From: Cinnamomum chago
Lineage: Eukaryota; Streptophyta; Magnoliopsida; Laurales; Lauraceae
Direction: 5' to 3'
Assembly (NCBI GenBank): GCA_038049695.1
Contig: CP142461.1
Location: forward strand, 28,093,001-28,157,000
DNA length: 64,000 nucleotides
Within the stretch, counting starts at the first letter, position 1, and each line of letters starts with the position of its first letter. Below are positions 6,243 to 60,150 of this stretch, piece after piece. Both the position numbers and the translations under genes were made by a program. The notes beneath the pieces are model-generated. The model made no database searches and was not told the origin of the DNA. It saw only the letters and a list, made by a program, of their open reading frames with translations.

Positions 6243-9200
6243 TGTAAGACCCCGACCCGAGTGATCCCGATTAGTGCTAATTAAGTTGCGTGTTAGTGCT
6301 AAGCTTGATTAGTGTTTTTGGTCTAGTTGGGTTTGGAATAGCCTTGATTCTAGTTTTGGGCCTTTTGGAGTGATTGATAGCTTGTGGGGCCCTTTGGGGG
6401 TTCCCTTTTTCGGCTTTGCATTTTCTTGTGAAATTTTCCCGACGTGTTTTAAATTGTGTTTTTGGGCCCGTTGCATTCATCTTGTGGATTCTTACAACTT
6501 TCATGTTGATTCCGTGTCCATTCGAGGCCCCGAAACCCGATTTCATAGCCTTGAGGGTAAAACAGTCATTTCACACCAAATCTGTACCCAAAACTTAATA
6601 TTCTCGAAACCCGCGAAACATACACTTTTTGGAAACTAGATATTTCAACGAACAATTCTTCCTTCTTCGTCGAATTCATCCGAGGACCCGAGAGAGATGA
6701 TATCAGCCCATTTAGTTTCATTAGTTGTGGGACCCAATCCAACCCAACTCTTTAGCTAACAAGAGAAGCCATTAGCCATTCACTTCATTTATCATTTTCC
6801 AGCACAAGAGAAGAGTCTAGGGTTCTCCTTGGTTTTCTCTCCTTCTTCTTGCTTCTCCATCTCAAAGCCTCACCAATCTTGCACCAAACTCAAAATGGAG
6901 ATCATCTTCTTCTTCCTCATCTTGCAAGCATTCCATTGATACCATTTGTGAAGGGGACCCTCCATCACAAGACCTTCTTTGAGCTCATCATTGCCATTAG
7001 AGGACCTTAAAGGTAAGAGATCATCCCCATCTCCTAGATTAGTGTTCCTCTAGTTCTTGTTAAGCTACATTTCCATTTTTGAAAGGTTTCCTAGTCATTA
7101 TATTGTTTGACCCATGTTAGGGCTTTATTTGGGGATTTTGCATTGTAGCTTGGACCATTTTCTTGGAGGACTTGATAGAGCTTAATATCATTAATTGAAG
7201 AATTGAGGCAAGTGAATGTTTGGAGGTTTTTAAGTTTCAAATGATTTGGTGAAACATTGATGGATTTTTATGCTTTCATTGATTGCATTTATTGATTTTT
7301 TATGGTTGCAATAAATGATATTTATGCATCTTGATAGCCTCATTTAATGTCTTGGAATCATGTGTTTTAGTCATCTTGATCATAGTTCTATGTGGTTGTT
7401 GAAGTGTTGGAAAGAAAGGAACAAAAAGGAGAAAAATCCAAGTCCCGGACCTGCACTGCGCCCAGGACCGATCGATCGGACGTGCAGACCGATCGATCGG
7501 TCTGTCAGTAACTGTAAGGGTTTTTGGACCGATCGATCGGGCCCTGTGTAGAAATTTCGGCCGATCGATCGGTCCCTGTTCAGTTTGAGTCCGGTGGATT
7601 TTGAGATTTTTATTTTTTTTCCTTAGTGCTAGGTGGGACCTTGGCTACCCTTTTTGGACTAATTGGACTATGGGTGAGATGTCTTGAGCCGACGCTTCTC
7701 ACGGTTAGTTTGGTGGCATCGAAGTTCAATCCGTTTCAATCTTGAACGGGATGGAATGACGCGATAACTTCTTCATATCCAAATATAAGTCTTTTGCCTT
7801 GGTTATCGCGAATTCCATTCCTTTCGATGACTGAATAGGTTGGTCGATGTTTCCGAATTAACGTCATGCCTAGGATGGACCGTCTATAACCTTGATTTTC
7901 CTGGTATGAAATCTAGTTATAACCATAAGCTCATTTTAAGTTTTGAAAATCATAAGAGTGCATAAGGAGCCCGGAATGTCTTCAAACTCAAGGAGTACCA
8001 AGTTATATCTATAATCGACATACGGGACCCCTATCCACTCAAATAGATCTTTAAATCATCATCTTTCCCGAATTGGTATAGTTCATCATATTTCTCTATT
8101 TCCAAGCATTACTTGACATGAATCGTTTTCCCGAAAGCATGATAGTAGTATTGACTTGTCCAGATATGTATTGCCCGACATGAGATGACAGTGTGCCTTG
8201 AGCACCCCCGTTTTCCCCGTCTATTTACTGTACTTGATTTACTTGTATATGTCTTGATTGGTTTTATCCTATGAGTCGGCATCACTAAGCTTGGATACCT
8301 TGTCAGTCTGATCCACTGACTTGGATATCCCTCTCCCGTCCCGCCAGCTGCAGTTTGGATCCCGATGCCCGGTTTATCACCGTGGCCCTGTCCCGATACC
8401 CGGTTCGCTACCGTGGTCCCGTTCCCGTATTATTATATTGTATATATGTATACGTTATTTCTCCTCACCTTGTGTGACTGAGATCAACGTCCCGTGATAC
8501 TGTTGTCACATTAGTGACAGAGGACTTAGCTTTATGTGATTGCCACCTTGTTATTCCCGATTTCCTTGGTTACCTCTTATGTTTCATCTTGTTTACTTGT
8601 TTTATAGCAAATGATTTATCTGTTTTATAAGAGTTCTTGCTTAAACAGATTTATATGCTTTTCAAGGTATTTTCCCCTATTATATGTTGTTGTATCCTTG
8701 CTTTCTCTTGCCAGACCGTCGCGTCTGATCCTTTGCTTTGGTACTCAGGTCCCGTTGCCGGCTTCTTTGAGGAGGAGCCAGAGGAGGCGGTAGGAGGGCC
8801 GCAACCTCTAGTTGAGTGGCGTGCTGACGATGTCATGTAGACATCGGGTTGCTACGAGAGACGCACATTTTGGGAGCTATACTTTAACCATTCTTTTGGG
8901 TTATTATTTTGTTCATATTGGCCTTTGTTGGCCTCTCTTTTTGGGGATTGTAACTAAATGATAACTTGTCTAACTTTAACAACTTTTGGGAAACATTGCT
9001 ATATATCATTGCTCATTTTGATACAGTCTTTCATACTCATGTTATTGTTATGATCTTCATGACTAATGATAGTTGGACTATTTGATTTGCTACACGCTTC
9101 CGCACTCAAAAAGAAATGTTCATTGATGTTTGTGATATCCTCACCGCGGACACCTGTGGGAAATTAAACAAAAACGTGTGTGTTGTTGGTTCACGACACA

Positions 9201-9249
9201 CACTAATGTCCCGATCCCGGATTGGGATTCCCGGTCCGGGGTCGCGACA
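6243..9249 (+). mobile_element. Gypsy-type solo LTR, 3.0 kb
   Basis: It starts TGTAAGACCCCGACCC and ends GGTCGCGACA, with perfect 5-bp target duplications GGTAG at 6238-6242 and 9250-9254. There is no internal region, so it is a solo LTR. Its length and TGTAAGACCC start suggest a long-LTR Ty3/Gypsy group such as Del/Tekay; that lineage is inferred, since no coding region is attached. The element at 24594-27983 shares the start and the middle (GAGTCGGCATCACTAAGCTT here, GAGCCGACACCACTTAGCTT there). A cluster of GATCGATC palindromes lies about 1.2 kb in. Small open frames inside it are not genes. Confidence 0.87.
7468..7572. repeat. Palindrome cluster, CCGATCGATCGG x4
   Basis: Four identical 12-bp perfect palindromes CCGATCGATCGG start at 7468, 7489, 7529 and 7561. 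Spacings are 21, 40 and 32 bp, close to 2, 4 and 3 helical turns. The cluster lies several hundred bp downstream of where the promoter of this LTR family should be, so it would be in the transcribed leader. Confidence 0.9.
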
Positions 9250-9262
9250 GGTAGTAGGGATC

Positions 9263-12304: not shown

Positions 12305-14209
12305 TGAAAGTCCTTGGGATCCTAACCCTAGAGGAGGGGGGGTGAATAGGGTGTGCTACAACTATGACCACCAATTTAGACAAATTTTAACTTCTTTAAA
12401 ACCAACTAGTCATATGTGATGATTAACCATACAATATGCGGAAGCTAACCAAAAACAATCACCACATAGCAATCACCACAACACAATATTTATAGTGGTT
12501 CGGCCAACGTGCCTACATCCACTACCGGCTTGTGCATCCAACACCCCACCGGATTTCCACTATGTATGCTTTTTACTAGGCTAAGCAATAACCCTTACAA
12601 TGTTGTTTTTCTAGGCTAAACAACAACCTCTCAATGTGCTTTTATAGGCTAAGCAATAACCTTTACAAGATGCTTTTCAAGGCTAAGCAATAACCTTTAC
12701 ACAATGCTTTTCTTAGGCTAAGCAATAACCTTACAAGATAAAGATTTCTCTAAGAAAGTGTCTTCTCAAAAGATCACTCTAAGAGATTACAATTTAAGCT
12801 CAAATTAATTTGCCTCTAAATAGGCGGATATGAAAATGAAAACTAGCTCACACAAACACTCAAAGAAATGCAAAGATGTATGCTTATGAAGTGTGTATGT
12901 GAAAACTTCAATCAAGTTTAAAAGTAAGCTCAATCAATTTATGCTTAATGCAATTCGAAAGTTTAAGGCACAAAAAGATATGATTGAAGTTCTATGCAAA
13001 TCACTTGAACAATTACACACTTGTGAATGATATGAAAATCTAAAGATCACAAGTTGTATGAAAGTGTTTAAGCCTAATCAAGTGATGCATGTGCAATGTT
13101 GTTTTCAAAACTAATTTGACTAAAGATTAAATGAATGAAAACAACAATGGAAGTTTCAACCAAGTGAAATAATCATGCAATAAAAGAAATCAAAGATTTA
13201 GGCTAAGCATGATTAAGAAAGTGTAAAACAAAACTTAGGTTGAAATCAAAGTGATGAATCCAATCTTGAATATCAAAGATGAAGGGAAGAATGGATTCAA
13301 CACATCATTGTTATCATGCTTGAAATCATTTTCCAAAGTTTCAAATAAAGCACATAACAAATGATTAATTAAAAGTAAAACTTACTTGGAGATTTAACTT
13401 AGTTGATCCAAGCTTAAGCTTCACTTAATGACCCCTTTGGTCTCTCTTAGTTCCTCCCCTTTGTCTTGTCTCAAAGCTCCTCAAAGAAGGCTTAAAAATC
13501 TCCAACTTTGGACAAAGGAAAGAACTCATTTTTATAGCAAAAAATGCCCAACGGTTAGTCCTCGGTCGACCTAGACACAGGTCTCGGTCGACCGAGAAAG
13601 CACAACGGTCATATTTCTGACCGTTGGCAAGTTACAGTTCAGAAACTGCCCACTCGACCGACAGTGTTCCCGGTCGACCGGGAAGCAGGTCTCGGTCGAC
13701 CGGCGACACTGCACAGGCCAAAATTTCCACTTTTGCAAGTTTCAAAGTATTTCTTTGTGGAACTATTTGGGCCAATAAATCAAGCTTAAAAACATGTTCT
13801 AAGTCATTCTAAGATGTTTAAAAACATGAAACACACAAAGCCTAAAAAGATTCAAAAGTTTAAAACCAAAGGCTAGCTTGATTTGATAAAACTCTATTCA
13901 AATGAGAAATGCATACAAAACTGATTCTGAAAGTGATGAATGTATGCAAGGCTCAAACCTAAATTCACAAAGTGATTTTCCAAATATAATGCATAAGGAA
14001 TTAGGTTTTCAAAAGAGTTTGTATTCTAAAACCAATGCATCCAAGTTTAGAAACAAAACATGCATAAAACAAGTACATTTCCAAATTTAAAAACCAATGC
14101 ATGTAAAAATCAATATTTCAAGATTTTCTAAATCAATGCAAGTGTGTGAATCAAATGATGCTAGAATGATAATGCATCCATCAAATTGCAATCTACAAAA
14201 TTCCTAACA
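12305..14209 (-). repeat. Left (3') LTR of the gag-only element
   Basis: This 1905-bp LTR carries a minus-strand TATA box (GCTATAAAAATG near 13530-13540) and the GGTCGACC palindrome cluster just upstream of it. Near 12590-12720 it holds short tandem units containing GGCTAAGCAATAACC; the other LTR has one extra unit. Confidence 0.88.
13561..13711 (-). promoter_or_regulatory. Palindrome cluster upstream of the LTR TATA box (GGTCGACC type)
   Basis: GGTCGACC or close variants start at 13564, 13586, 13652, 13672 and 13694; three of the four intervals are 20-22 bp. Some copies extend to 14-bp perfect palindromes (CTCGGTCGACCGAG, CCCGGTCGACCGGG). The last two sit between CAGTGT (13662) and ACACTG (13706), a 50-bp composite. 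The cluster ends about 25 bp upstream of the minus-strand TATA box, where promoter-proximal factor sites are expected. The role is inferred. Confidence 0.75.
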
Positions 14210-16269
14210 ATCTCCCCCTTTGCAATTTGATCGCAACTCACTCATCACACTCACCACTGAATAAACACACTTAGTCTTCAGCTCCCCCTAAGCTGGACAA
14301 GTCTTGAAATCTTCTTGGATGCTCCTTCTCTTAGCTTGAGCTCTTGAGCTCTTTTCTTCAATCTTCTTGATGCTTGGTGCTTGATCAAACTTCAAGCTTT
14401 CTATTCATCTTCCTTTCTTTGGCTAAGCATCTTCTTTAGCTCCAAGCTTTCTTTCTTCTATAAGCTCTTCCCCTTTGACCATGCCTCTCTCACCCTTTGG
14501 CAAGATATGCATTCTCTCTTCCCCTCTTGAGAACTTGAATGCTTTCTCCCCCTTTGAAGAGTAGGAGATCTTTGAGTACTTGAACTCTCTCTCCCCCTTT
14601 GACATTAAATTGCAAAGGTACCTACACACATGAAATAAGGAAAATACCTTTTAGTAGCACCTGTTAACAAATGAAATCGAAAATGAAATACATAACAGGC
14701 TATCATGTATGGAAGTAGTCTCTAAGGGCTCAAAGGCAATCCAAGGGTCAATTTGATCACAACTAATTCTTCCTATGAAGGTTTACACTCCCCCTCAATC
14801 CATTCTCTTCTTTTGTCAAACTTTTGACAAGATTTAACTATTAGATTCAAGAAGTAGATGGTTTATCCAATTGAGGGTCAACTTCAAGAGAAGGATTAGA
14901 TTCATTTAACTATAAAGCTCATATGATCAAATTGCCAAAAGAAAGCTAGGTCTAATGGGAAAAGCAATCATGGATACCAATTGGAAAAACAAAGAATACC
15001 AATTGAGATTTAAGGATATGTCTATTAAATCAATCACTCTAAAATGGATTTAAAAGTATGACTATTAGGAAAAATCCAAATTAGAGCTATCCATGAAGCA
15101 ATGGGGTTTATTAATCATAGCATCAAATAATCTAACTATGGAAAGCATATGCTATGAAGGTTTTGAAAATCATTTCATTCAATCAATAAATATGACTTAT
15201 CATGTGCAAGATGAGTGAAATGAAATTCAAGCATGAAGCCAACCTCAACTAATAACCAACCCATATTATGAACACATAAACATGGTGGTCATGAGATATA
15301 CCTATATGAGCAAAAGAGGTGGCAACATGAACATTATGATGCTAATGGAATGTGACATGGAACAAATATATAACTATCAAGCTCAATCCAATGCATACAA
15401 GGTCTATCACATACACAAGATAAGATATCAATTGGATATGAAATCAATGGAAAGTTATACCAAATGAAACCAATTGAATATGATAACATGATTAAAAGCA
15501 AGGATGTGACAAACACACAATTCCATCAAGCATCATAAATGCATATTCATCACTTTTAAAGATATGACTATTAAGCATAGTGATGAATAAGACAAATTGC
15601 AATGCAAAAGGATATGGCTATGAAATGCATGCAATATCAAAGTGTCAAAATCATATGAATTCAACATCTAAGATATCCATCAAACATATAGAAATATGAG
15701 AAATGGGTTTCAAAGAGTTTCATATGATTAAGAACACTACTTATGAAGTTGAAACATGTATAAGGATGATACCAAGAAAATCTACATGAATCAACATCAT
15801 AACCATCCAAAAAGAAATGACTATAAGGCATAGAGGATGGATTTGGGTTCTAGTATGGTTTCTACAAATATTACTAAGATCAAAACCATACATGGAACCA
15901 ATTGACATTTGCATATAAAAAGAATGACTAAATAAGCAAAGATGCAAATGACTTGAAACAACAATTGATCATGACTAAATTAGCTATGAAAGCTTTTAAA
16001 GTCACAAACAATTTAATCATGTAGAAATGCAATGCAAAACATAAAACTAAATGAGTGCAAAAAGCAAATCAAACATGATGAAATTATAATCAAAAGATTT
16101 TGAAAACCATGAAGTGTAACTTAGAATGGTGTATGAAAACAAAATCAATTGATCATAAAGAAACATTGCATTTTAAGAAATGTAACTATGAAAGAACAAA
16201 ATGCAAAAGCAATCATGACCAACAAAAGGTTTAACTTATAAAGCATAGGTTGGTCAATGAGGTCCAAGG
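14210..16269 (-). mobile_element. Non-coding 3' internal part of the gag-only element
   Basis: This 2-kb AT-rich stretch lies where pol would be in an autonomous relative, and no pol motif was recognised. At the LTR side the polypurine motif recurs several times (plus-strand CTCCCCCTTT-like blocks at 14213, 14549 and 14591), as described for Sireviruses. Farther right, loosely repeated words of the type ATGACTAT followed by AAGCATAG suggest degenerate internal repeats. Confidence 0.6.
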
Positions 16270-17840
16270 CCTTAAGGTTTGTCTAAGTATAAAACTTTGG
16301 GAATCCACCTAAGGTCTTGGGAGGGTTGAGCTTTGAGGTCTAGTTTGGAATTCTCACCAACTAAAGGAGATTTGACTTGATAAATTTTCAATTTAAACTT
16401 ATCACCATGATATTTTGATTTGACTATATTTAGCTTGGATTTGTGATTAGTCTTTTGAAGTTGGTGGGTTTGTTTCTTGGGGGATTGATTCATTTTTCTT
16501 TTCTTCTTATTTTCTCCCTTTCTTTGACTTTTGAAATTTAGATTTAACTTTGTAATTTTCTTCAAAAGTTCTTTCATGTTTTGACTTAAAGGAGGTAGGT
16601 TGAGAAGCTTTTTGTTAATAGATTCTTTGATTTTTGGTTTAACTTATTTAAGCTTTTTAGAATCTATCTTGGGAGACTCCTTGTTAATTGGTTTAACTTG
16701 TTTAAGCTTTATGGAGTCTTCCTTGGTTTTTAGTGTCTTACCCTTCAAGTTTGATTTTACTTTCTTTGGTTCAAAGATGGGATTAGACACATTGCTTCTT
16801 CTTCGTTTGCACTCAAACCTAAAGTGTCCTTCAATGCCACAATAATTACATTTAGACATGGGCAAAGAAGTGTGAGTGCTAGAGAATGAGGACTCACCTT
16901 TCACAAAAGTGTTGGTGAAATTAGGGTCATGTGAAATATTCCTATCAAAACCAAGACCCGTCCTATCTCTTTGAGATTTACCCAATTTAAATAATTTTAC
17001 AAATTTCTCATTACTTTGGGTAAATTTGCACTCATACTTTTGTTTGTACTCTTCAAGTTGAGTGACTTGGGTTTTAAGGGTTGAATTTTCATTTTTAACT
17101 TTTGTTAGTTCATTTTCAATTCCCTTAAAATTGTTTAGCTCTTCATAGGCAAGTTTTAACTTAGATTTAAGCTCATTAACAACATTAGATCCAAGTTCTA
17201 AAGTTTTTAAATTACTTTGAGCATTAGACAAATTTTCATTGGAAATTTTCAACTTGGATTTTAAATAGTTAATGTTTTCATCTTGTCTTTTAATTGTATC
17301 TCTTAGGTTCAAATTTTCATTTTTAAGCTCATCACAATTTATCTTAATCTCATTTAATTCATCTTGAGCATTAGATAAATTTTCCTTAGAGATAGTCAAT
17401 TTAGATTCAAGATTGTTAAAGTCTTTATCTTGCCTTTGTAATTGATCTCTTAGTTTTAGATTTTCCTTATTAAGATGATCATAACCTATCTTTAATTCTT
17501 TTAGTTCATCTTGAGTATTGTATAGGTTATTCAAAGAGATCATGAACTTAGATTCTACACAATTTATAAATTCATCTTTTTCTCTAAGTTCATTTTTAGA
17601 AGAGTCTAATTCTTGGTTTAGCCTTTTAGATTCTTCTTTTAATCTTTTATTTTTCTTGGAAACCTCTAAGGACCATGTGTACAATTCCTCATAGGCTTCA
17701 TATTCATCAACTTCTTCTTCTTTTAATTCAAGTTGAGATTCTTTAATTTTAATGTTTGAATCTCCATAAGATGGAAGAATGAGGGGTCTAGAAGAATCTA
17801 CAAAGTCTAGCATAGTGGAGTCCATTCTAATGATGTTCAT
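16270..17840 (-). mobile_element. gag-like coding region of the Sirevirus-like element
   Basis: A long leftward reading region of about 400 codons begins near 17840, shortly after the primer site. After a short acidic lead it is almost entirely Lys/Glu/Leu/Asn-rich heptads with repeated units such as KSKLKISNENLSNAQ, a predicted long coiled coil. A zinc knuckle CNYCGIEGHFRFEC (CX2CX4HX4C) follows near 16810-16850. Gag proteins of this group pack RNA through the zinc knuckle and assemble through the coiled coil. A Lys-rich tail near 16270-16580 ends in a WIPK motif that in relatives lies just before the protease. No usual N-terminal gag domain is obvious. Confidence 0.7.
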
Positions 17841-17940
17841 AAAAACACAACTCTAGGGTTTTAACTCTAGGTTTTTACACCTAATCAAGAGTTCCAAACA
17901 CTTGATCCTAAAAGATAGAGCACGAGTCTCTGATACCAAT

Positions 17941-19876
17941 TGAAAGTCCTTGGGATCCTAACCCTAGAGGGGGGGGGGTGAATAGGGTGTGCTACAACTA
18001 TGACCAATTTAGACAAATTTTAACTTCTTTAAAACCAACTAGTCATATGTGATGATTAACCATACAATATGCGGAAGCTAACCAAAAACAATCACCACAT
18101 AGCAATCACCACAACACAATATTTATAGTGGTTCGGCCAACGTGCCTACATCCACTACCGGCTTGTGCATCCAACACCCCACCGGATTTCCACTATGTAT
18201 GCTTTTTACTAGGCTAAGCAATAACCCTTACAGTATTGTTTTTCTAGGCTAAACAACAACCTCTCAATGTGCTTTTATAGGCTAAGCAATAACCTTTACA
18301 AGATGCTTTTCAAGGCTAAGTAATAACCTTTACAAGATGCTTTTCAAGGCTAAGCAATAACCTTTACACAATGCTTTTCTTAGGCTAAGCAATAACCTTA
18401 CAAGATAAAGATTTCTCTAAGAAAGTGTCTTCTCAAAAGATCACTCTAAGAGATTACAATTTAAGCTCAAATTAATTTGCCTCTAAATAGGCGGATATGA
18501 AAATGAAAACTAGCTCACACAAACACTCAAAGAAATGCAAAGATGTATGCTTATGAAGTGTGTATGTGAAAACTTCAATCAAGTTTAAAAGTAAGCTCAA
18601 TCAATTTATGCTTAATGCAATTCGAAAGTTTAAGGCACAAAAAGATATGATTGAAGTTCTATGCAAATCACTTGAACAATTACACACTTGTGAATGATAT
18701 GAAAATCTAAAGATCACAAGTTGTATGAAAGTGTTTAAGCCTAATCAAGTGATGCATGTGCAATGTTGTTTTCAAAACTAATTTGACTAAAGATTAAATG
18801 AATGAAAACAACAATGGAAGTTTCAACCAAGTGAAATAATCATGCAATAAAAGAAATCAAAGATTTAGGCTAAGCATGATTAAGAAAGTGTAAAACAAAA
18901 CTTAGGTTGAAATCAAAGTGATGAATCCAATCTTGAATATCAAAGATGAAGGGAAGAATGGATTCAACACATCATTGTTATCATGCTTGAAATCATTTTC
19001 CAAAGTTTCAAATAAAGCACATAACAAATGATTAATTAAAAGTAAAACTTACTTGGAGATTTAACTTAGTTGATCCAAGCTTAAGCTTCACTTAATGACC
19101 CCTTTGGTCTCTCTTAGTTCCTCCCCTTTGTCTTGTCTCAAAGCTCCTCAAAGAAGGCTTAAAAATCTCCAACTTTGGACAAAGGAAAGAACTCATTTTT
19201 ATAGCAAAAAATGCCCAACGGTTAGTCCTCGGTCGACCTAGACACAGGTCTCGGTCGACCGAGAAAGCACAACGGTCATATTTCTGACCGTTGGCAAGTT
19301 ACAGTTCAGAAACTGCCCACTCGACCGACAGTGTTCCCGGTCGACCGGGAAGCAGGTCTCGGTCGACCGGCGACACTGCACAGGCCAAAATTTCCACTTT
19401 TGCAAGTTTCAAAGTATTTCTTTGTGGAACTATTTGGGCCAATAAATCAAGCTTAAAAACATGTTCTAAGTCATTCTAAGATGTTTAAAAACATGAAACA
19501 CACAAAGCCTAAAAAGATTCAAAAGTTTAAAACCAAAGGCTAGCTTGATTTGATAAAACTCTATTCAAATGAGAAATGCATACAAAACTGATTCTGAAAG
19601 TGATGAATGTATGCAAGGCTCAAACCTAAATTCACAAAGTGATTTTCCAAATATAATGCATAAGGAATTAGGTTTTCAAAAGAGTTTGTATTCTAAAACC
19701 AATGCATCCAAGTTTAGAAACAAAACATGCATAAAACAAGTACATTTCCAAATTTAAAAACCAATGCATGTAAAAATCAATATTTCAAGATTTTCTAAAT
19801 CAATGCAAGTGTGTGAATCAAATGATGCTAGAATGATAATGCATCCATCAAATTGCAATCTACAAAATTCCTAACA
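17941..19876 (-). repeat. Right (5') LTR of the gag-only element
   Basis: This 1936-bp LTR is almost identical to the left LTR, with one extra tandem unit near 18305-18340 and few other differences. It carries the same TATA box and palindrome cluster, and would hold the active promoter for leftward transcription. Confidence 0.88.
19228..19378 (-). promoter_or_regulatory. Palindrome cluster in the right LTR (GGTCGACC type)
   Basis: This is the counterpart of the cluster at 13561-13711, with GGTCGACC-type sites starting at 19231, 19253, 19319, 19339 and 19361 at the same spacings. It lies upstream of the promoter that would drive the element. Confidence 0.75.
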
Positions 19877-21662: not shown

Positions 21663-23592
21663 TGTTAGGGATTTTTTTTTGTAATTTGATGGATGCATTA
21701 TCATTTTAGCATCATTCGAATCTTTACATGAGCATGGATTTAGAAGAACTTGAAATCTTGAACTTCACATGCATTGTTTTAAAACTTTTAGAATTTATGT
21801 TACATGCATATTTTGGATTTTAAACTAGGATGCATTAAGTTTTGAAAAGAAGATTTTTGAATCATGCAAGCCTTTGGACCTACAATTGTAAATCATTTTA
21901 GGCACAATAGGTTCATGTTTTGGAAGATACTTTTGGTTTGATTTAAACATGAGGCTAAGTTTGATTTCCATGGCCCAGAACTCCCGCTAGAAAATTCTTT
22001 GGAGTAGCTTTTTGCCTAATCTTTTTAGAAGGAAAAACTTTTTTGGTGCTACAATACTTTTGATATAGTACTTGTGCTATAGTGTTTTCCTACAGTTTTT
22101 TGCTATACAGTTAAGTCGGTTAACTAAACTTAAGATGTCGGTTAACCGAACCTTGACCGAACCTACTTTGGTTCCTATTCCAGAATGTGAGAAATGTTAA
22201 ATTTCGGTCCTACGTCGGTTAGTTGTCAGTTAACCGACATGAGGAAGTTCGGTTAGTCAAATTCAAATTTTATGACTGTTGGAAAATAACTGTTGGGAGT
22301 TCAATTAACCGAACTTGAAGTCGGTTAACCAACCAACTAGCCGTTGGATAACTTTTTATATATAAACAGCTAATTCCAAAGCCAAATTGGAGGAACCAAG
22401 GGGTATTCCTTGAGGTGTTTTGAGGCCAAACAAAGGAGAATGAGCTAAGGAAGGTTAGAGGGTCATAAAGGAAAGCTAAATCTTGGAATCATGAGTAAAT
22501 CATCTAAGTAAGCTTAGTTTTCCTTATCATATGTTTTCATGCTTTGTTTAGACATTTGGAAAAACTATTTTAACATGCTAACTATGATTTGATAAATCCA
22601 TTACATGTATTTCACTTTGAGTTGCTTTGTTGTTTTGGATTCTTCATTTAGATTCAAACCAAAGCTTGTTTTAACTTTCATATCATAATGGTTTCATGCT
22701 TTGTTAAAAATTTGATTTCTCTCATAGCATGATTCTCATACTTGGTTGAATCTCTAGTTAGTTGTTTTCATTCCATGAACACATAGCAAACTAATTTGTT
22801 TTGAAAACAACTATACTCATGCATCACATGTTTTAGATTTGAAATTTTAATACAACTTGCATAACTTGATAAGTCATATCTTTACAAGTTGTTTATTTAA
22901 AGAACATGTGATTAGCATTTTCACTTTAATCAAAGCATTTGTGATTTAAACTTTCAAAATCTTTAACCTTACATTCATTGAGCTATCATTTTAAGACTTG
23001 ATTGAAGTTCTCATGCATACACATAAAGCATTTATCTTTGCTTTCATAGAGTGTATACGTTGAGTTAGATTTACATTTTTATATCCGCCTAATTAAGAGG
23101 CTTTGTAATTGAGCTTAAATTGTATCTCTTCAAGTTTTGTGTTGACACTTCTTAGAGACAACCATTATTAGGGTTGCATAGGTTATTGCTGAGCCTTAGA
23201 AAACCATAAGTATATGGTTAGGGGTGAACCATAATACCCAAGAAGTTATTTCTTAGCCTTGGAAAACATATTGTAAGGTTATTGCTTGGCGTTGAAAAAT
23301 ATTTTGTAAAGATTATTGATTAGCCTATTGAAAAGCATAGATAATGAAAATCCGGAAGGGTGTAGGATCACAAGCCGATAATGGATGTAGGCATTGAGGC
23401 CGAACCACTATAAATCATTGTGTTATTGTGAATGCTTTATGGTGATTGTATTTGTTAGCTTCCGCACTTTAATTCATAATCATCACTAGTAACTAATTAA
23501 TTTAAAGAACTTTAGAAATTGGCATAATTGGTCACAAAAGTCAAGCTCACCCTATTCATCCCCCCCTCTAGGGTTCGGATCCCGAACTTTCA
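21663..23592 (+). mobile_element. Solo LTR related to the Sirevirus-like element
   Basis: It starts TGTTAGGGATTTT and ends GATCCCGAACTTTCA, with perfect TTCTT duplications at 21658-21662 and 23593-23597. Read in reverse it resembles the LTR at 12305-14209 throughout: the same ends, the tandem AAGGTTATTGCTTAGCC-like units near 23270, and the same promoter layout. It is clearly diverged, so it is a sister family or older copy. It has a plus-strand TATA box (TATATAAA, 22357-22365) and no internal region. It interrupts the FAR1-like pseudogene. Confidence 0.85.
22118..22330 (+). promoter_or_regulatory. Palindrome cluster upstream of the TATA box (GGTTAACC type)
   Basis: GGTTAACC or one-base variants start at 22118, 22140, 22217, 22228, 22251, 22303 and 22323. 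Spacings include 22, 11, 23 and 20 bp. The cluster occupies the same place as the GGTCGACC cluster of the sister LTR and ends about 27 bp before the TATA box. The centre is TA instead of CG in every copy, while flanking CG dinucleotides (CGGTTAACCG) are often kept. Confidence 0.7.
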
Positions 23593-24588: not shown

Positions 24589-24593
24589 TATTT

Positions 24594-28745: not shown

Positions 28746-28866
28746 CTAAAGGGCCTAGATGTAATTCTGAAGTTATGTGAAGCACTTAAGCCAAATAGAC
28801 ATCACTCACATCAGTATCAAACCCTAGCATCCTTCTCCCGTTTCTCACTTTCTCGCCCCAGCCTCT

Positions 28867-30851: not shown

Positions 30852-30970
30852 ATGGTATCAGAGACACTCCATGTGAAATAATGATCCCATGTTGTGTGGT
30901 TTTCAATCCTAGATTAATTAAGGGCATGGTGGCGCCCTTTAGATTGTTGTTTACTGCATAAATATGGTGC

Positions 30971-31130
30971 AGGAATTTTTCCCATGCTGCTGGAACAATT
31001 CCAGAACGCTGATTACTACATGTATGAAGTCCAGGAATTTTTTCATGCTGCTGGAACAATTCCAGAATGCTGTTTTCTATATGTTTGAAGTGCAGGAATT
31101 TTTCCAGGGTGCTGGAATAATTTCAGATCA
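30971..31130 (+). repeat. Three tandem units in the Copia leader (CAGGAATTTTT type)
   Basis: Units of about 55 bp carry GTGCAGGAATTTTTCC, then GCTGGAACAATTCCAGAA. They recur three times with a few differences just after the primer site. GGAACAATTCC is itself an inverted repeat, so the transcribed leader could form short hairpins. Confidence 0.8.
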
Positions 31131-32105: not shown

Positions 32106-32335
32106 TAGAGTGTTAATGGGAGCGGCCATCCCTTCGATGGAGTTCTTTACTAAAGATCGCTTCGATGGGTTAGTGGGTGAACCAATGTGAATATTCGTAA
32201 TGAGGTGTTAGTGGGAGCGGCCATCCTTTCGGTGGAGTTCTTTACTAAAGATCACTTCTATAGAATGTCAATGAAGTGTTGGTGGGAGCGGCCATCCCTT
32301 CGGTGGAGCTCTTTACTAAGGTTCACTTCAAGGGT
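32106..32335 (+). repeat. Tandem units in the Copia leader (GGGAGCGGCCATCC type)
   Basis: Three units of about 80 bp share GTGGGAGCGGCCATCC, GGTGGAGTTCTTTACTAA and AGATCACTTC. A worn further trace (CTCGGCCATCCCTTCGATGG) lies near 32561. They occupy the long untranslated leader upstream of gag. Confidence 0.8.
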
Positions 32336-33530: not shown

Positions 33531-33589
33531 AGCTCCTAGGCTCAGATAAGAAAGGTATATCTCTTTCCTACTACATTGAAACCTGTCAT

Positions 33590-34900: not shown

Positions 34901-35149
34901 GGTTGTAAAGAAACACTTGAGGAGATTCTTTCAGAAACTCCTGTAACATCTGTGCCAGATCCTGAGACTGTAGAAAATCAAGACATTCCTTTTAACACTC
35001 CTGAGCCTCGTCGTAGTGGGAGAATTTCTAGACCACCAGATAGATACCTGGGAGTGTCTTTCATGACAGACTCCGAGGATCTGGTTGAGGATCCTACTAG
35101 TTACGATGAAGCAGTAACGGACATAGATTCTGACATGTGGTAGCAAGCG

Positions 35150-36667: not shown

Positions 36668-36681
36668 TGCAAGTGGGAGAT

Positions 36682-38841: not shown

Positions 38842-38912
<71 letters not shown>

Positions 38913-41381: not shown

Positions 41382-41393
41382 TGTCAAATATTG

Positions 41394-44788: not shown

Positions 44789-44826
<38 letters not shown>

Positions 44827-49885: not shown

Positions 49886-50837
49886 TGTAACGCCCTAAGA
49901 TCCGGGCGCCTCGAATCTCGGGATGCTACAAGAAAGTACCCAAGAGATGCGGAAAATCCAATAATATAATCAAGTATAAATCTCATATGAGCAAGTAAAT
50001 GGACAAAGCCCTAAAATTTTAGTTCACTTTAAGAGATTATAAGGTACTTTTTGAAATTAAACTAACTATCCAATCCTAGGCCGACACGGCCAGCTACGAG
50101 AAAAGGAAAGAATAGAGATCTACGTGTCAGACGCCTCTCGATGCACCAACTGCATCATTCTCTGAACCCCGCGGCAACGGATCAGCCGCCAAGCAATTCT
50201 ACCAATCAAAGAAAGCGGAAGAGAAGATACCTGAAAACACCAAGGATTGGGTCAGGCTCGACGAGCCAGGCAAATAGGCATGTTTAGATGGCAACACGTT
50301 ATATTAATAAACAGAGAAGAAGACCATACCTGATCCCAACTGTACCTGCGTGATTAGTATACCAAAAGAATTATATAATATCTGAGTGCAACGGAAGCAG
50401 TGTGGAGTGTAGTGCATGAATAATAATCAAGATATCTATATAACAGATGTTTGATACAGCATATCAAGTAGATAAAAGAAGTCATCATCAGCAAGACATC
50501 ATATAAATCATATAAGCACATCGAAGTCACTAATAGCATAGATAACCTGAGAATATAACTTTACCATATACGTAACCATCGTATCCAAATCCAATCGTAA
50601 CAATGTCGACAGTTAAAGAAAATAAATAATGGCAACCATATCACATAATAATAATACATCTAATATACATACACAAGAGCATATAGAGGTACGTCCACAG
50701 TTGAGGTACAAGGGACGTGAGGGGTCAGAGCCAGCTCATCGGCATTGTCCCAACAACTGTCGATGGACATTAGCCATGGGGGTCATAGCCACCCATCGCT
50801 ACCGTCACATCGAATAAGAGTGCACAAGAGTCCATCA

Positions 50838-51130
50838 ATAACCATAGCCACTGCCAAGTCTCAGCCATTGGTCTTACGTGCTAGCTCTACCTCAATACTC
50901 ATCCATAGCCACGGCCAAGTCCCAGTCATTGGTCTTACGTGCTAGATCTATCTCAACACTCAATATCCATCCACCTGTATCCGGTCCGAATGCCGGCGGT
51001 CTCGGTACCCGATCACTCATCGGTACCTACTGTACTCAATCACTCAACATTCATCCACATGTACCCGGTCTGAATGCCGGCGGTCTCGGTATCCGATCAC
51101 TCATCGGTACCTACTGTACTTAATCCCTCA
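50838..51130. repeat. Two adjacent tandem duplications in the solo LTR
   Basis: A unit of about 66 bp (ATAGCCACTGCCAAGTC ... GGTCTTACGTGCTAG) is repeated twice at about 50838-50965. A unit of about 80 bp (TGCCGGCGGTCTCGGTA ... CGGTACCTACTGTACT) is repeated twice at about 50968-51130. Copies differ at a few positions. Confidence 0.8.
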
Positions 51131-51919
51131 ACATCCAATATCCATGTCCATGCCGGCATCATAACCCTCGACAGACCAATCGTACATCCATGTATCCTAC
51201 GGATCACTAGGTGGGGGTACTCCGAACTGGATAACGATATTATCCTTATTATGAGATGATAGTAGTCAAGGGTACGAGGCACGGAGTTCAAGTATAGTTA
51301 ATCCATCCTTGTGATTCTCAACAACTAATAATACATACCCTTATAAACTCCGCTTCTCTATACGCTTAATTAGTATTATCTCATTATATGATCCATTCAT
51401 CAATATCTACCGTTAAGTTACCATTATTACTGGTCAGGACTTCAAGTGCCATGTCCCGACATTTCATCCAATACGGACCGTGATCGTGGATTAGAGCCTA
51501 AGTGCAATGCCCTGATTTATAATATCTCTCGAGGCCTACATCCAAAGTTCGGACCTACCAGCCAGACTTAGTGTCCGTTTCAAAATATAAGTACCACATA
51601 TCTCAAATACATCGGTCATCACTGCCCCTCTCTTCGGGTCCAGGGTCCCACTTCACCCAAGACAATGATCACGGGGCCCCAGATGCTTATTAAGTATCCT
51701 TGGTGCTCTTGTAGGTGTTTAGCATCTTAATACATCCATAACCATTGAATCGGGTTCCGTTTACAACCCAAGACCCTACTTAGGTGGCTACGCGGGTCAA
51801 GGTTAAGCCCAGCCCTTGACTCGTGTCTCGCGTATCCCAAACAGTCCAGATGGAAGGTCAACGGGGCCCACGCATGATCATATCATAAATGGGAACTAAA
51901 TCTAGAAAATCACTATTTA

Positions 51920-52222
51920 CAGTGTACCGGGTCGACATCATGGGTACACGGGTCGACCTGCTACACTGTGGAAGTGGACAGCTAACTGGGAGTTAGAAAA
52001 CTTAGTCTGCAGTGTCCCCGGTCGACCTGGAGGGTCCCCCGGTCGACCGGGTACACTGTGGGAATTTTCACAAACAGTTGGCAGGGGGGATTCCTGTAGT
52101 GTGGCTGGTCGATCGGGTACACTGAGTCAGGCACCATGCAGGAATTTTCAGCTCCCAGCTGAGGGTCAGTCCCCTGTGTGCCCGGTTGACCGCCTGAGTG
52201 ACCAGGTCGACCGGGTACACAT
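51920..52222 (-). repeat. Array of CAGTGT-palindrome-palindrome-ACACTG composites
   Basis: Composites of 49 bp lie at 51920-51968 and 52010-52058, each with CAGTGT, two GGTCGAC(C) sites 21 bp apart, and ACACTG. A worn third has GGTCGATC at 52107 and ACACTG at 52119. A worn fourth has GGTTGACC at 52185 and GGTCGACC at 52205, about 20 bp apart, between GTGTG and TACACA. The composites repeat every 75-90 bp. The array lies about 650-950 bp downstream of the TATA box, so it would be in the transcribed leader. Confidence 0.82.
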
Positions 52223-53513
52223 GAAACCCTAAAAATCAAGATTCTACCCTCTTCCGTTTTCCATCAAAACTACATCAAATGGATCCCAAATCTTCACCAA
52301 ACACTTCCAAACCTTAAACACTCCTCCCTCATCATGACCTCATCACAAGTGGGCCATTGATCTTCCAAATGGGGGATTCCCATCCATCAATGGCCAATAA
52401 CACATAAGAAAAGGCTTAGAACATCTATTCATGCATAATACCATCTAATCAATCATCTAAATACAGAAATCATGCCAATTAACTATAAAAGACAGTAATT
52501 AACAATCTAAGCATGTTAATAAATTTAATTAAAGAATCTAAGCATGTCTACTTGCCTTATTAGGAAGAAAACTCCTCAAGTAGCTTGGGCTCCACTCCAA
52601 TAGCTCTAAGTTCGCTCCCAATGGTTGAATCTAAAATCTCTACACGTACACCCATTCCCAAAGAGAGAAATGCATAAGAAATAGAACTTTAAGAGAAAGA
52701 GCTATACTACAAGGAAATTGGAAAGAGAGGAGGAGATTACCTTAACTTGGAGAGGGAAGAGAGGTCTAGGAGATGAGAGACCCTAATCTCTAACTTAGAA
52801 AAGAGAGGGAGAGATGGGAGGGAATTGTAGTGAAATGAGGTGAAGAGATAAGAGGGGTTTCTTTTATAGGGGTTGGTTGGGTTTTAGTCCAAAATACCCT
52901 CCCTTGCTAGAGTAAGTTTAGGATAAGGATGAGGGTATTTGGGGAATGCTAAAATAGAATGACCAAAGGGTCCTTGGTTACCAATAGAAATAAAGGATAA
53001 AGGGCTAGGGTAATTTAGGTATTCACATCTAATAACTAAAGTATCCTCAAATGAGTGGTTGTGAATAAAGGAGCCTAAGGGCAATAAAGGTAGGTTATTT
53101 ATTATGACAAAAGTACCAATGTTTACTTGGTAGAGAGTAAAAGAGCCAAGGACATTTATGGTATTAGGATTTCCAAAAAGGAGGGAAAAGGTGTGGAAAT
53201 AGAGACTAGAGTACCCTCATATGATAAATGGGTTAATGGGTTGGGCCATAGGTAGTTGGGTCATTCTAAGGTTAATTGCACAACTCTCTAAGGGAAACCC
53301 ATCTATAATTAGGATTACCACTAAGGCCTCTAATTGGTTAACTAATTCTAAGAAAACCACTATTAATCTCACAAGAGTCTCAATCCTATAAACTAGGCTT
53401 AATTAATGGGAAATTACTAACTATTCATGCTAATCACCTATTAAATAGGATAACATATTGTTGACTTGGTCAAATTGGGTCCCACTAGGTATTTCTAGGA
53501 ACGGGTCCTCACA

Positions 53514-57486: not shown

Positions 57487-57512
57487 TAACACTACTAGAA
57501 AAAAGGGTTTTT

Positions 57513-57795
57513 ATATCGGCTAAAAACCGATATAAAAGACCTATTATATCGGTTTTTCACTAAACTCCAAACCGATATAAGTACCCCCGATATAATAGAT
57601 AACTATAACCGATATAATATGTATATTATTTAATATCGGTTTTTGGACAACTGATGTCTTTTAAACCTGAAATTATAACACATATTACTGTAAAACCGAT
57701 ATAAAAAAAGTGAAACCGATATAAAAAATATTTATAATATCGGTTTTTTGGGATTATATTATATCGTTTGTTCTGTAACCGATTTAATATTATAT
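57513..57795 (+). repeat. Left subterminal AACCGATATAAA array of the CACTA
   Basis: About twelve copies of ACCGATATAA or TTATATCGGTT in both orientations lie within 300 bp of the left end. Such arrays bind the TNPA-type protein in En/Spm; by analogy this is the binding region here. Confidence 0.85.
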
Positions 57796-57857
57796 ATGTA
57801 TTTTTTTTTATAAATAGTCCTTCTAGAAAGGGTCAGGTGACCTTACGGTCACCTGGC

Positions 57858-58005
57858 GGCTAGCCCCCTTGCAAAGGGGGGCTAGCCGCCAGACCCACGG
57901 TCAGCTTTCCAGTAAGCATTTTTTTGTCAGGATGATTTTCTGTGCATCCTGCGGCTAACCGCCAGTGCACCTGCGGCTAGCCCCCAACTTTTCCTGCGGC
58001 TAGCC
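57858..58005 (+). repeat. Palindrome cluster, GGCTAGCC x5
   Basis: GGCTAGCC or GGCTAACC start at 57858, 57880, 57953, 57975 and 57998, with spacings of 22, 73, 22 and 23 bp. The first pair sits in a larger inverted repeat (TGGCGGCTAGCCCCCTTG / CAAAGGGGGGCTAGCCGCCA). Confidence 0.88.
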
Positions 58006-58037
58006 GTGAGCCATCCTGATTTGAATGGCAGAATTTG

Positions 58038-58960
58038 TCTCCAGTAGAAAATTCATAACTTCCTCTTCTGAACTCGAAACAACATGATTCTTGATCCAAA
58101 TGAAATATTTATCAGAGGGATACAACTTTCATGTTTTGATATTTAACCTAGATTGAATGGAAAGTAGTGTAAAATCACCTTGAAGCTGACTGGTCACAGA
58201 AAAACAGCAACCTGAGTGAAGCAGAGTTGTCTCCAGTAGAAAATTTTTAACTTCCTCTTCTGAACTCGAAACAACATGATTCTTGATCCAAATGAAATAT
58301 TTATCAGATTTCTACAACTTTCATGTTTTGAGATTTAACCCAGATTGAATGGAAAGTAGTGTAAAATCACCTTGAAGCTGACTGGTCACAGAAAAACAGC
58401 AACCTGAGTGAAACAGAGTTGTCTCCAGTAGAAAATTCATAACTTCCTCTTCTGAACTCAAAACAACATGATTCTTGATCCAAATGAAATATTTATCATA
58501 GGGTTACAACTTTCATGTTTTGAGATTTAACCCAGATTGAATGGAAAGTAGTGTAAAATCACCTTGAAGCTGACTGGTCACAGAAAAATAGCAACCTGAG
58601 TGAAGCAGAGTTATCTCCAGTAGAGAATTCATAACTTCCTCTTCTGAACTCGAAACAACATGATTCTTGATCCAAATGAAATATTTATCAGAGGGCTACA
58701 ACTTTCATGTTTTGAGATTTAACCCAGATTGAATGGAAAGTAGTGTAAAATCACCTTGAAGCTGACTGGTCACAGAAAAACCGCAACCTGAGTGAAGCAG
58801 AGTTGTCTCCAGTAGAAAATTCATAACTTCCTCTTCTGAACTCGAAACAACATGATTCTTGATCCAAATGAAATATTTATCAGAGGGCTACAACTTTCAT
58901 GTTTTGAGATTTAACCCAGATTGAATGAAAAGTAGTGTAAAGTCACCTTCAACTTCTGGA
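58038..58960 (+). repeat. Five tandem 192-bp units inside the CACTA
   Basis: TCTCCAGTAGA starts at 58038, 58230, 58422, 58614 and 58806, an exact 192-bp period. Each unit contains ACTTCCTCTTCTGAACTC, AACATGATTCTTGATCC and AAGCTGACTGGTCACAG. The last unit is incomplete. Copies are nearly identical, so the array is recent or homogenised. Confidence 0.93.
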
Positions 58961-59032
58961 GGCTAGCCTTCAACTTGGAGGCGGCTAGCCGAACCAAGTT
59001 GGAGGCTAGCCTTCAACTTCTGGCGGCTAGTC
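58961..59032 (+). repeat. Palindrome cluster, GGCTAGCC x4
   Basis: Sites start at 58961, 58983, 59004 and 59025 (the last is GGCTAGTC), with spacings of 22, 21 and 21 bp. Spacers repeat TTCAACTT and AACCAAGTT words. Confidence 0.88.
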
Positions 59033-59639
59033 GAAACAGCAGGGAAAAAACAGCATTGTGAAGAAACGCAGCAGGGAAAAAAACAGCAGAAACACAGCAG
59101 GGAAAGAAAAACAACAGGGAAAAAAAATACATAACAACAGCAAGAAAAACAGCAGCAGAGATTGTGAGAAAACAGAACAAAAAAAAACAGAGAGAGAGAG
59201 AGAACAGAAAACAGTAGCAGCAGAAGAAAAGGGAAAGAAAGAAATGAAACAAAAAGAAAGGAAAGAACGTGGTGTACCTGGCACCTGCACAGCGCCGGAA
59301 GAGCAGCTTCTTCCTCTTCGTCGTCGTCGTCTTCTTCTTCTCCGGAGAACGAGAGTGAGCGAGAGAGACAGGGAGAGCAGAGAGAGAGTAGAGAAAGCGA
59401 GAGTGAGAGAAGAGCAGAGAGAGCGAGAGTGAGAGGAAAGGGGTTTTTGGAGGGAGAGAAGCGCTGGGAAGAGAGGCGAGAGTGAGGAGAGAAGAGGGCG
59501 AGAGTGAGGAGAGAAGAGAGCGAGAGTGAGAGGAAAGAAGGAATGATGGAGAAAGAAAGAGAAGGGAGGGAAGGAAAAAAAAAAGAGGGAAAGAAGGAGT
59601 GAGCCCGCGCGGGGGATTAAGGGATTTGAGGTATATAAT

Positions 59640-60150
59640 ATCGGTTTCATAATAACCGATATAAAATATTATATATAACTGGCGGTTAGCCGCAGGTGCA
59701 CTGGCGGTTAGCCGCATGTGCACTTGCGGTTAGCCGCATGTGCACAGGCGGTTAGCCGCAGGACGCCCTGAAAAGGGAGGGAAGAAGGAAAAATAAAAAG
59801 GAGGGAAATAACCAATATAAAATATGTATATATAATATCGGTTCCATAATCACCGATATAAAATATGTGTATACAACCGATATAAAATATATGTATACAA
59901 CCGATATAAAATATTTGTCTATAATATCGGTTTTATAATAACCGATATAAAATATTGAAATTAATATCACATATTTTCCTAACCGATATTATATATAGAG
60001 ATTATTATGTCGGTTCCAGTGTAACCGATATAAAAAAAATTGACCGATATAAAAAAATATTAACCGATATAAAATACATTGACTGAAGATATTATATCGG
60101 TTATATAAAAAACCGATATAGGGCAGTTTTTGCAACCGATATAAAAGCCC
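59640..60150 (+). repeat. Right subterminal AACCGATATAAA array of the CACTA
   Basis: Over a dozen AACCGATATAAAA or ATATCGGTT words lie in both orientations, mirroring the left side. A GGTTAGCC cluster is embedded at 59684-59757. Confidence 0.85.
59684..59757 (+). repeat. Palindrome-like cluster, GGTTAGCC x4 at 22-bp period
   Basis: GCGGTTAGCCGC starts its 8-bp core at 59684, 59706, 59728 and 59750, an exact 22-bp spacing three times. The spacers carry GTGCAC. These are the GGCTAGCC sites with one base changed in the same position in all four. Confidence 0.9.

Follow-up and report, generated by a model that had tools for sequence, protein, structure and literature searches.

Arrays of short palindromes spaced about two helical turns apart in LTR retrotransposons and a CACTA element of Cinnamomum chago

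Results

The window, by which we mean the whole 64,000-nucleotide stretch of Cinnamomum chago DNA that was analyzed, contains a non-autonomous, gag-only Copia-Sirevirus element (12305-19876, minus strand) with the TSD CCTCA. Its 3′ LTR (12305..14209, minus strand) is 97.9% identical to its 5′ LTR (17941..19876, minus strand), and its assignment to the Sireviruses rests on TG..CA LTRs, a PPT (AGGGGGAG) followed by the AT/TG attachment site at 14219, and a Met-type PBS (TGGTATCAGAG) at 17938, next to the 5′ LTR. A 402-aa gag-like ORF (16647..17852, minus strand) carries a coiled coil and a weak zinc knuckle, with Pfam matches to TPR_MLP1_2 (E 7e-4) and zf-CCHC (E 0.004) that both fall under the curated cut-offs; protein comparison with the ORF of a relative, L029, gave no real match. 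The 3′ LTR contains an array of the palindrome GGTCGACC (13563..13702) with four strict copies at 13564, 13586, 13672 and 13694 (gaps 22/86/22), lying upstream on the minus strand of TATAAAAA at a distance of 27 bp, and the window scan located the same array in the 5′ LTR (19230..19369; strict copies at 19231, 19253, 19339 and 19361). Nearby is a solo Sirevirus-type LTR (21663..23592, plus strand; TSD TTCTT), homologous by blastn to the LTR of the gag-only element (72% over part of its length) and differing from it in its cores, which are GGTTAACC. This second array (22118..22330) includes two strict copies, at 22140 and 22323, the others being degenerate, and lies 26 bp upstream of a TATA box.

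Two further LTR-like sequences bear arrays. The first is a repeat with approximate ends (6500..8600) and a CCGATCGATCGG array (7468..7572; gaps 21/40/32), in which the strict 8-bp core GATCGATC occurs at 7470, 7491, 7531 and 7563. This repeat is likely to be of Gypsy type, because copies of 79-87% identity are present in L012 and L018 and because positions 6553-6688 match L026:5373-5508, which adjoins an ORF for an SH3_Tf2-1 integrase. The second is a 3.6-kb solo LTR (49886..53513, plus strand; TG...CA, TSD GGTAA), whose ends are shared by at least 13 other copies (query 385-389 to 4014-4015 of 5001). Its GGTCGACC array (51930..52212) comprises four strict copies (51951, 52020, 52041 and 52205) together with degenerate ones, and the TATA box is 271 bp downstream.

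The window also contains a non-autonomous CACTA element (57490..60165), defined by perfect 13-bp CACTA terminal inverted repeats (CACTACTAGAAAA) and the 3-bp TSD TAA, and having subterminal ACCGATAT repeats. Three ORFs within it (213-238 aa) gave no Pfam match at E 0.1. One GGCTAGCC array is situated some 370 bp in from the left end (57857..58006; strict copies at 57858, 57880, 57975 and 57998) and another is internal (58960..59012; 58961, 58983 and 59004, gaps 22/21). On the right side, four CGGTTAGCCG copies (59678..59762) form a 22-bp tandem repeat; as the sites at 59683-59749 lie within this ordinary repeat (TRF: 3.9 copies, 92% match), the three gaps between them are not independent.

The strict copies thus located confirm the preliminary description in its claim that clusters of 8-bp palindromes occur at these positions, and the cluster observation is real. 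Its assertion that neighboring starts are mostly 20-23 bp apart stands with qualifications: several of the steps involve copies that are degenerate (13652, 51930, 52183 and 57952, along with most of 22118-22323), the three gaps of the right CACTA array are non-independent, and the same clusters hold gaps of 69, 73, 86 and 164 bp that the description leaves out. Of the three unrelated classes said to carry the arrays, Copia-Sirevirus and CACTA are established within the window, and Gypsy is established in relatives, not for the solo LTR at 49886-53513. Gypsy gag or pol sequences lie beside an array-bearing LTR in L018 (array 5751-5901, PBS word 7279, Ty3-type gag 7573-8199) and in L026 (the end of an SH3_Tf2-1 integrase), the LTR ends in both being approximate.

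Genome-wide, pairs of GGTCGACC separated by 12-40 bp number 36,698, versus 42 for the reversed control, although same-family copies dominate such counts and the pairs are not independent. The spacing is not flat: 33,022 of these pairs (90%) are 19-23 bp apart, only 163 occupy the trough at 26-28 bp, and 488 form a rise at 31-33 bp. The four other cores behave similarly. Pairs of GGCTAGCC, GGTTAACC and CGATCGATCG number 4,550, 2,115 and 9,380 (reversed controls 1, 83 and 0), and CGCTCGAGCG, counted as single words, occurs 35,424 times versus 75. Among the 50 matches listed for each, a non-random set starting at one end of contig C1, the gaps of CGATCGATCG concentrate at 20-22 and 41-42 bp and those of CGCTCGAGCG at 19-22 and 51-53 bp, and 10 of the 50 GGTTAACC pairs are 14 bp apart. 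When 20 stretches of 10 kb were sampled at round coordinates along contigs C1-C8, 6 contained one or more same-core pairs with a separation of 19-24 bp. A single spacing geometry in unrelated element classes, as had been proposed, is borne out, with spacers that mostly differ and a deficit at half-integral turns. The proposal that all sites lie on one face of the helix holds between neighboring sites only; 30 longer gaps from the sampled loci and the window are unphased (R 0.25 at 10.5 bp), many of them falling near a half-turn, whereas 17 longer CGCTCGAGCG gaps, among same-family copies that are not independent, are phased (R 0.62). A spacing of 19-23 bp that repeats near 42 or 52 bp would not be expected from one fixed small-RNA size.

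Pure chance is ruled out by the reversed-word controls, a one-family artefact by the presence of the arrays in several LTR families and three classes, and simple tandem duplication, except at 59678-59762, by TRF.

All 1,024 possible 10-bp palindromes were enumerated in 264 kb, comprising 20 loci and the window itself; every relative comes from one genome, and L029-L034 were chosen for holding arrays. Only five CG-containing palindromes reach at least four copies: CGGTCGACCG (18), CGATCGATCG (11), CGGTTAACCG (6), CGGCTAGCCG (6) and CGCTCGAGCG (4). Four of the five cores had been taken from the earlier observation, and GCTCGAGC was found in the sample. All five fit the form CGNYYRRNCG, a common form that is new here, and the remaining 48 palindromes of the form CG......CG total one copy in the same 264 kb. 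The suggestion that each family has its own core fails, as Copia and Gypsy share GCTCGAGC, Gypsy and CACTA share GGCTAGCC, and cores are exchanged within families.

This exchange, also new here, is seen in two pairs of closely related LTRs, with palindromes and spacing kept. The LTRs of L018 (GGTCGACC) and L026 (GGTTAACC) are sisters with support of 100/100 in a 13-row tree, and are identical at 554/604 positions downstream versus 107/175 in the array. For L030 and L032, with flank identities of 259/334 and 1,093/1,193, five GGTTAACC sites of L032 align with four GGTCGACC sites and with a degenerate GGTCGACT site of L030. In these two pairs some sites face a gap (L030:8399; L026:7975 and 7987) or a non-site (L026:8042). 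Two further pairs, L031/L033 and the Gypsy pair L026/L018, do not align inside the array, and thus replacement of the whole array and a change of word are equally likely there. Two CpG transitions per site could also turn GGTCGACC into GGTTAACC.

Among 12 Sirevirus LTR arrays (ten assigned by blastn, L022 by resemblance only and L024:5583-5642 by its PPT), 11 end 26-52 bp upstream of a TATA box, the exception being L024:5583-5642, for which the first TATA-like word is about 450 bp downstream. CpG observed/expected ratios in those 11 arrays are 0.80-1.21, versus 0.13-0.40 in their flanks. CpG enrichment is absent from the CACTA arrays, from 51951-52212 and from L026:4218-4248. The spacers contain CAGG or CCTG in 40 of 68 cases (shuffled mean 8.3).

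Symmetry extends beyond the cores in some contexts. Single GGTCGACC sites (n=64) have complementary flanks at none of 14 offsets (p<0.05), single sites of GGTTAACC, GGCTAGCC and GATCGATC exhibit some complementarity near the core, and the flanks of single GATCGATC sites (n=13) show symmetry at 5 of 14 offsets. In 34 unique pairs, complementarity of the outer flanks exceeds that of shuffles at 5 of 12 offsets (p<0.05), and spacer dyad symmetry amounts to 91 of 225 position pairs versus 59.7 expected. All eight array segments subjected to RNA folding were better than the shuffle mean (z -2.25 to -9.78), and spacer covariation was detected at one of five positions in 43 GGTCGACC spacers and at none of five in 25 CGATCGATCG spacers. 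Hairpin capacity is strong and covariation mixed.

Discussion

We propose that the clusters are putative cis-regulatory arrays for dimeric, sequence-specific DNA-binding proteins, a reading that we think has an even chance of being correct. One or a few such proteins would bind the arrays, one dimer reading each 10-bp palindrome of the form CGNYYRRNCG, and adjacent dimers two helical turns apart might touch on the same face and so bind cooperatively. Located just upstream of TATA in most of the Sirevirus LTRs examined, the array could function as an enhancer or anti-silencing element, and non-autonomous carriers would probably borrow the protein from the host or another element. Across an array one core word can give way to another, with palindromy and spacing kept. 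We infer the protein, its dimerization, its cooperativity and its role from the sequences, spacing, shared cores, core exchange and TATA position described above. Some of the words may resemble GCC-box, DRE, AuxRE or MYB sites.

Single GGTCGACC sites without flank complementarity are expected if sites are read by sequence. Counting against a protein array are the unphased longer gaps in one of the two samples, the L024 exception in TATA position, the arrays that lack CpG enrichment, the GGTTAACC pairs at 14 bp, the dominance of same-family copies in the counts, the two-transition route from GGTCGACC to GGTTAACC, the sites that face gaps or non-sites in the exchange pairs, and the two further pairs that fail to align inside the array.

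The main rival, which we regard as rather unlikely, is a hairpin or small-RNA function, in which palindrome pairs would be the arms of a hairpin or cruciform stem (at least 8 bp, with a loop of 11-15 nt) formed by LTR transcripts or by single-stranded cDNA, serving RNA structure or small-RNA processing, and loop length would set the spacing. The outer-flank complementarity and spacer dyad symmetry of the 34 unique pairs, and some complementarity near the core at single sites of GGTTAACC, GGCTAGCC and GATCGATC, count against a protein array and are as hairpins predict; the folding of all eight array segments speaks for hairpins, as does the report that palindrome-rich LTR regions of maize Sireviruses are small-RNA hotspots (PMC5311732, PMC10760457). 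However, covariation in the spacers is slight for both GGTCGACC and CGATCGATCG, loop length fails to predict the gaps of 41-42 or 51-53 bp or the trough at 26-28 bp, and palindromy alone demands neither one word per array nor five words of one form. Moreover, since the arrays lie upstream of TATA in most Sirevirus LTRs, only the 3′ LTR copy would be transcribed from that promoter.

An improbable alternative to the protein-array reading is a functionless, mutational origin, in which tandem duplication, template switching during reverse transcription and palindrome correction would make and homogenize the arrays. In its favor are the right CACTA array, which consists simply of a 22-bp tandem repeat, the faster divergence of array segments than of flanks, and the symmetry in the flanks of the 13 single GATCGATC sites. 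Yet among the matches listed the spacers mostly differ while the spacing is kept, Copia, Gypsy and CACTA elements have these few words in common despite their different modes of replication, and CpG-rich words survive amid CpG-depleted flanks. Very improbable is the idea that GGTTAACC arrays are methylation-decayed GGTCGACC arrays: the change from TCGA to TTAA is two CpG transitions and an intermediate, GGTCAACC, occurs at one aligned site, but CpG decay as the sole source of GGTTAACC is ruled out by half-decayed forms (GGTTGACC 2, GGTCAACC 9) that are fewer than GGTTAACC (18) in 264 kb, all five L032 sites are perfect CCGGTTAACCGG, even the one facing a degenerate L030 site, and GGCTAGCC and GCTCGAGC are left unexplained.

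It is usually assumed that unrelated transposon classes evolve their regulatory sequences separately. A broader proposal, which we offer tentatively and consider somewhat doubtful, is that Copia, Gypsy and CACTA elements share a small set of exchangeable CGNYYRRNCG words (five of sixteen seen) placed two helical turns apart. The set would correspond to what a small family of paired DNA-binding proteins recognizes, and elements would exchange words across whole arrays in an arms race that turns on promoter access or silencing, amounting to one code across classes. If true, tens of thousands of copies of a common word set with a fixed geometry, in which sister LTRs have exchanged words, would point to a common trans-acting system, and the words provide exact oligonucleotides with which to seek it. 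It would also make the persistence of palindromes in LTRs, despite their reported attraction of small RNAs, a question on which protein binding and hairpin formation can be tested against each other.

Several known systems invite comparison. CACTA subterminal repeats, which are bound by TNPA-like proteins, are likewise short repeated sites near both ends and capable of forming stem-loops (PMC2613891); here, by contrast, the ACCGATAT subterminal repeats are nearer the ends, and the GGCTAGCC-type arrays are set about 370-400 bp in from either end, with another midway. The anti-silencing targets of VANC proteins are also short arrayed motifs in non-coding transposon DNA with quick turnover between related copies, whereas VANC21 motifs have one orientation and are recognized by a protein that the Arabidopsis VANDAL family itself encodes (PMC5735166, PMC10398659), and the motifs described here are palindromes; no VANC-type Pfam match was found among 34 distinct ORFs. 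In titles and abstract openings of the openly licensed literature we found no cross-class description of fixed spacing, and a text search for the palindrome words returned, judging by title among the matches listed, primers and unrelated work.

In maize Sireviruses, fast-evolving clusters of palindromes occupy the cis-regulatory region of the LTR, much as proposed for the arrays here (Bousios et al., 2016, as cited in PMC5311732 and PMC10760457). One palindrome is the commonest motif in structured regions of both maize Copia elements and Helitrons (PMC10760457), which provides a precedent for sharing between superfamilies. The passages on palindromes in these papers, unlike our account, are silent on a fixed spacing, on the exchange of words and on a common set of words.

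The closest parallel is the repeated motif (RM) box. That palindromes had been noted in Sirevirus LTRs, as the preliminary description stated, is in print: Bousios et al. (2010; PMC2829016) report that the upper half of the Sirevirus LTR bears palindromic RM boxes built on a CGG-CCG core, which lie within CpG islands upstream of TATA and have extra copies in the linker preceding the env-like gene. The GGTCGACC and GGTTAACC LTR arrays of the window have such a box and core, a CpG-rich block shortly upstream of TATA is present in 11 of 12 Sirevirus LTR arrays, the table entry for a Vitis element, CGGTCGACCG, is a word found here (PMC2829016), and the linker copies resemble the situation in L024, where GCTCGAGC occurs both in the LTR and between pol and the 3′ LTR. 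The gag-only element has four strict copies per LTR and eight over both LTRs, while the RM-box count of at least eight covers one LTR plus linker. The RM section of that paper gives no spacing, in contrast to the two-turn spacing here, and it describes RMs as specific to Sireviruses and lacking in classic Copia elements (PMC2829016), whereas words of the same kind occur here in Gypsy LTRs (L018, L026) and in the CACTA element of the window, and two of the five words, those of the CGATCGATCG and CGCTCGAGCG arrays, are without CGG-CCG. Most likely the arrays extend the palindromic boxes already published for Sireviruses.

A restricted set of palindromic cores recurs at a preferred step

The window lies at C11:28093001–28157000 of a 1.06-Gb assembly (14 contigs), probably of a plant to judge by its elements. 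In this assembly the palindromic core GGTCGACC forms 36,698 pairs at distances of 12–40 bp, against 42 for the reversed control word, which is itself palindromic. The preferred step of about 20–23 bp proposed in the preliminary description is borne out by these pairs, 33,022 of which lie at 19–23 bp, with 2,491 at 24–30 bp (163 of them at 26–28 bp) and 488 at 31–33 bp. Pairs of GGCTAGCC (4,550 versus 1 for the reversed word), GGTTAACC (2,115 versus 83) and CGATCGATCG (9,380 versus 0) are likewise abundant, and CGCTCGAGCG, counted as a single word, gave 35,424 versus 75 genome-wide. Among the first 50 listed places for each word, the 19–23 bp class accounts for 43 (GGTCGACC), 47 (GGCTAGCC), 32 (GGTTAACC) and 32 (CGATCGATCG); a 14-bp distance occurs in 10 of the 50 for GGTTAACC and a 41–42 bp distance in 16 of the 50 for CGATCGATCG. 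The first 50 places for CGCTCGAGCG yielded 28 neighbour gaps of at most 130 bp, 11 at 19–22 bp and 8 at 51–53 bp. Near the centre of 14 of the 16 listed 41–42 bp gaps of CGATCGATCG, judged by eye, lies TAACTG or CAGTTA, as if occupying a vacant slot on a 21-bp grid. The helical phasing claimed for the clusters holds for gaps of up to 45 bp (n = 58; R 0.65 at 10.5 bp) but not for those of 46–130 bp (n = 30; R 0.25), as measured in the window and loci L009–L034 of this genome.

Enumeration of all 1,024 10-bp palindromes in 20 loci and the window revealed exactly five CG-containing words with at least four copies, each of the form CGNYYRRNCG and together numbering 45 copies, whereas the remaining 48 CG......CG palindromes contribute one copy in all. 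Of the 1,024, those that form at least one pair at 18–24 bp comprise four of these five words and AATTATAATT. An outer C..G flanks GGTCGACC on both sides at 39 of 72 sites in the fetched loci and the window, a tendency rather than a rule.

Arrays occupy different element classes

The palindromes claimed in the window were found at their assigned positions by sequence scan, although several of the quoted spacing steps depend on degenerate copies; 59678–59762 is a plain 22-bp tandem repeat. A 5-bp target duplication accompanies the Copia-Sirevirus element at 12305–19876, whose two LTRs are 97.9% identical and which has a Met-type primer-binding site together with the polypurine tract and attachment site of Sireviruses. 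Its single long ORF resembles gag, its matches to coiled-coil and zinc-knuckle domains both falling under their cut-offs. A solo LTR at 21663–23592 belongs to the same broad family and carries another core. The 3.6-kb solo LTR at 49886–53513 (TG..CA, duplication GGTAA) has ends that recur in at least 13 other copies among the matches listed. Both L012 and L018 hold relatives of the repeat around 7468, which is likely Gypsy since part of it matches sequence adjoining an SH3_Tf2-1 integrase in L026. At 57490–60165 lies a non-autonomous CACTA element whose three ORFs (213–238 aa) gave no Pfam match. Its ACCGATAT/ATATCGGT subterminal repeats (57520–57745 and 59638–60140) have neighbour gaps of 17–62 bp inside each end block, apart from one of 180 bp, and are spaced less regularly than its GGCTAGCC arrays. 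A second two-LTR Copia element with gag, integrase and RVT_2 ORFs (28866–38640) holds one GGTTAACC in each LTR and no array, and hAT transposase remnants (zf-BED, hAT dimerisation) lie at 41337–43517.

Arrays span element classes as proposed, with Sirevirus Copia and CACTA examples in the window and a Gypsy LTR in L018, but the idea that each family has its own core fails. GCTCGAGC occurs both in that Gypsy LTR (array 5751–5901, primer-binding-site word 7279, Ty3-type gag 7573–8199) and in a Sirevirus LTR of L024 (pol RVT_2, polypurine tract 5400, array 5583–5642), while GGCTAGCC is present in the window's CACTA element and adjoins the Gypsy integrase in L026. GGTCGACC occurs in Sireviruses and also in L034, where it is placed by nearness to a Gypsy gag-RT ORF rather than by LTR ends.

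Related LTRs exchange cores

The Sirevirus LTRs of L018 and L026 are sisters (support 100/100) in a 13-row tree that took in two unrelated rows. At two of the aligned positions where L018 has GGTCGACC, L026 has GGTTAACC, and at a third it has GGTCAACC; three other L026 sites lack a counterpart in L018. The two LTRs match at 131/176 positions upstream and 554/604 downstream, but at 107/175 within the array, where 56 alignment columns are gaps. In the pair L030/L032, four of five GGTTAACC sites of L032 are aligned with GGTCGACC in L030 and the other with a degenerate site, a fifth L030 GGTCGACC (8399) facing a gap; identity is 259/334 and 1,093/1,193 in the flanks and 105/191 in the array, with 102 gap columns. 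The L031/L033 LTRs and the Gypsy LTRs of L026/L018 are also homologous pairs with differing cores, and do not align within their arrays.

Arrays as putative protein-binding sites

A TATA-like word lies 10–70 bp downstream of 13 of 32 arrays examined, among them 11 of 12 Sirevirus LTR arrays, where the distance is 26–52 bp; for the exception, L024:5583–5642, the first such word is about 450 bp off. CpG observed/expected is 0.80–1.21 in those 11 arrays versus 0.13–0.40 in their flanks, an excess absent from the CACTA arrays, 51951–52212 and L026:4218–4248.

The specificity of the words, the helical repeat of their spacing and their position at promoters lead us to favour a reading in which the arrays would be bound by protein. 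A hairpin function is kept alive as its rival by the symmetry of the palindrome pairs. Stable hairpins were predicted in 8/8 array segments (z −2.25 to −9.78), as expected because palindromes must form them. Covariation evidence is mixed: single GGTCGACC (n = 64) and GCTCGAGC (n = 11) sites show none, GGTTAACC (n = 25), GGCTAGCC (n = 18) and GATCGATC (n = 13) show some near the core, 34 pairs show some, and typed spacer lists show little. CAGG or CCTG occurs within 40 of 68 spacers versus 8.3 in shuffles, and may represent a second site between cores.

An inverted CAACGG...CCGTT, which we take to be MYB-like, lies between two palindrome pairs of Sirevirus LTRs (window 13600–13625; also L011, L026, L029 and L031). 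On the outer side of palindrome pairs, about one turn from the core, CAGTGT...ACACTG was seen in several LTRs (L034, L010, L030, L031 and window 52020). A Sirevirus-type element in L029 (LTR copies ~1106–2787 and 7421–9102) contains, in addition to a gag-like ORF, a minus-strand ORF at 3568–4845 with a Transposase_32 domain (PF20167, E 4e-14), whose product is a possible trans-acting protein.

Comparison with known systems

The palindrome pattern is real and strong; the mechanism behind the arrays is one that we infer. A search of titles and opening lines of abstracts among openly licensed papers found no description of fixed spacing, a cross-class word set or word exchange. According to PMC5311732 and PMC10760457, maize Sirevirus palindromes are small-RNA hotspots, and one palindrome is common to Copia and Helitron regions. 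Rapid turnover of arrayed motifs is already known for VANC targets (PMC5735166, PMC10398659). The pattern is best filed with the palindromic repeated motif boxes of Sirevirus LTRs, among which PMC2829016 includes CGGTCGACCG, but it extends past Sireviruses.
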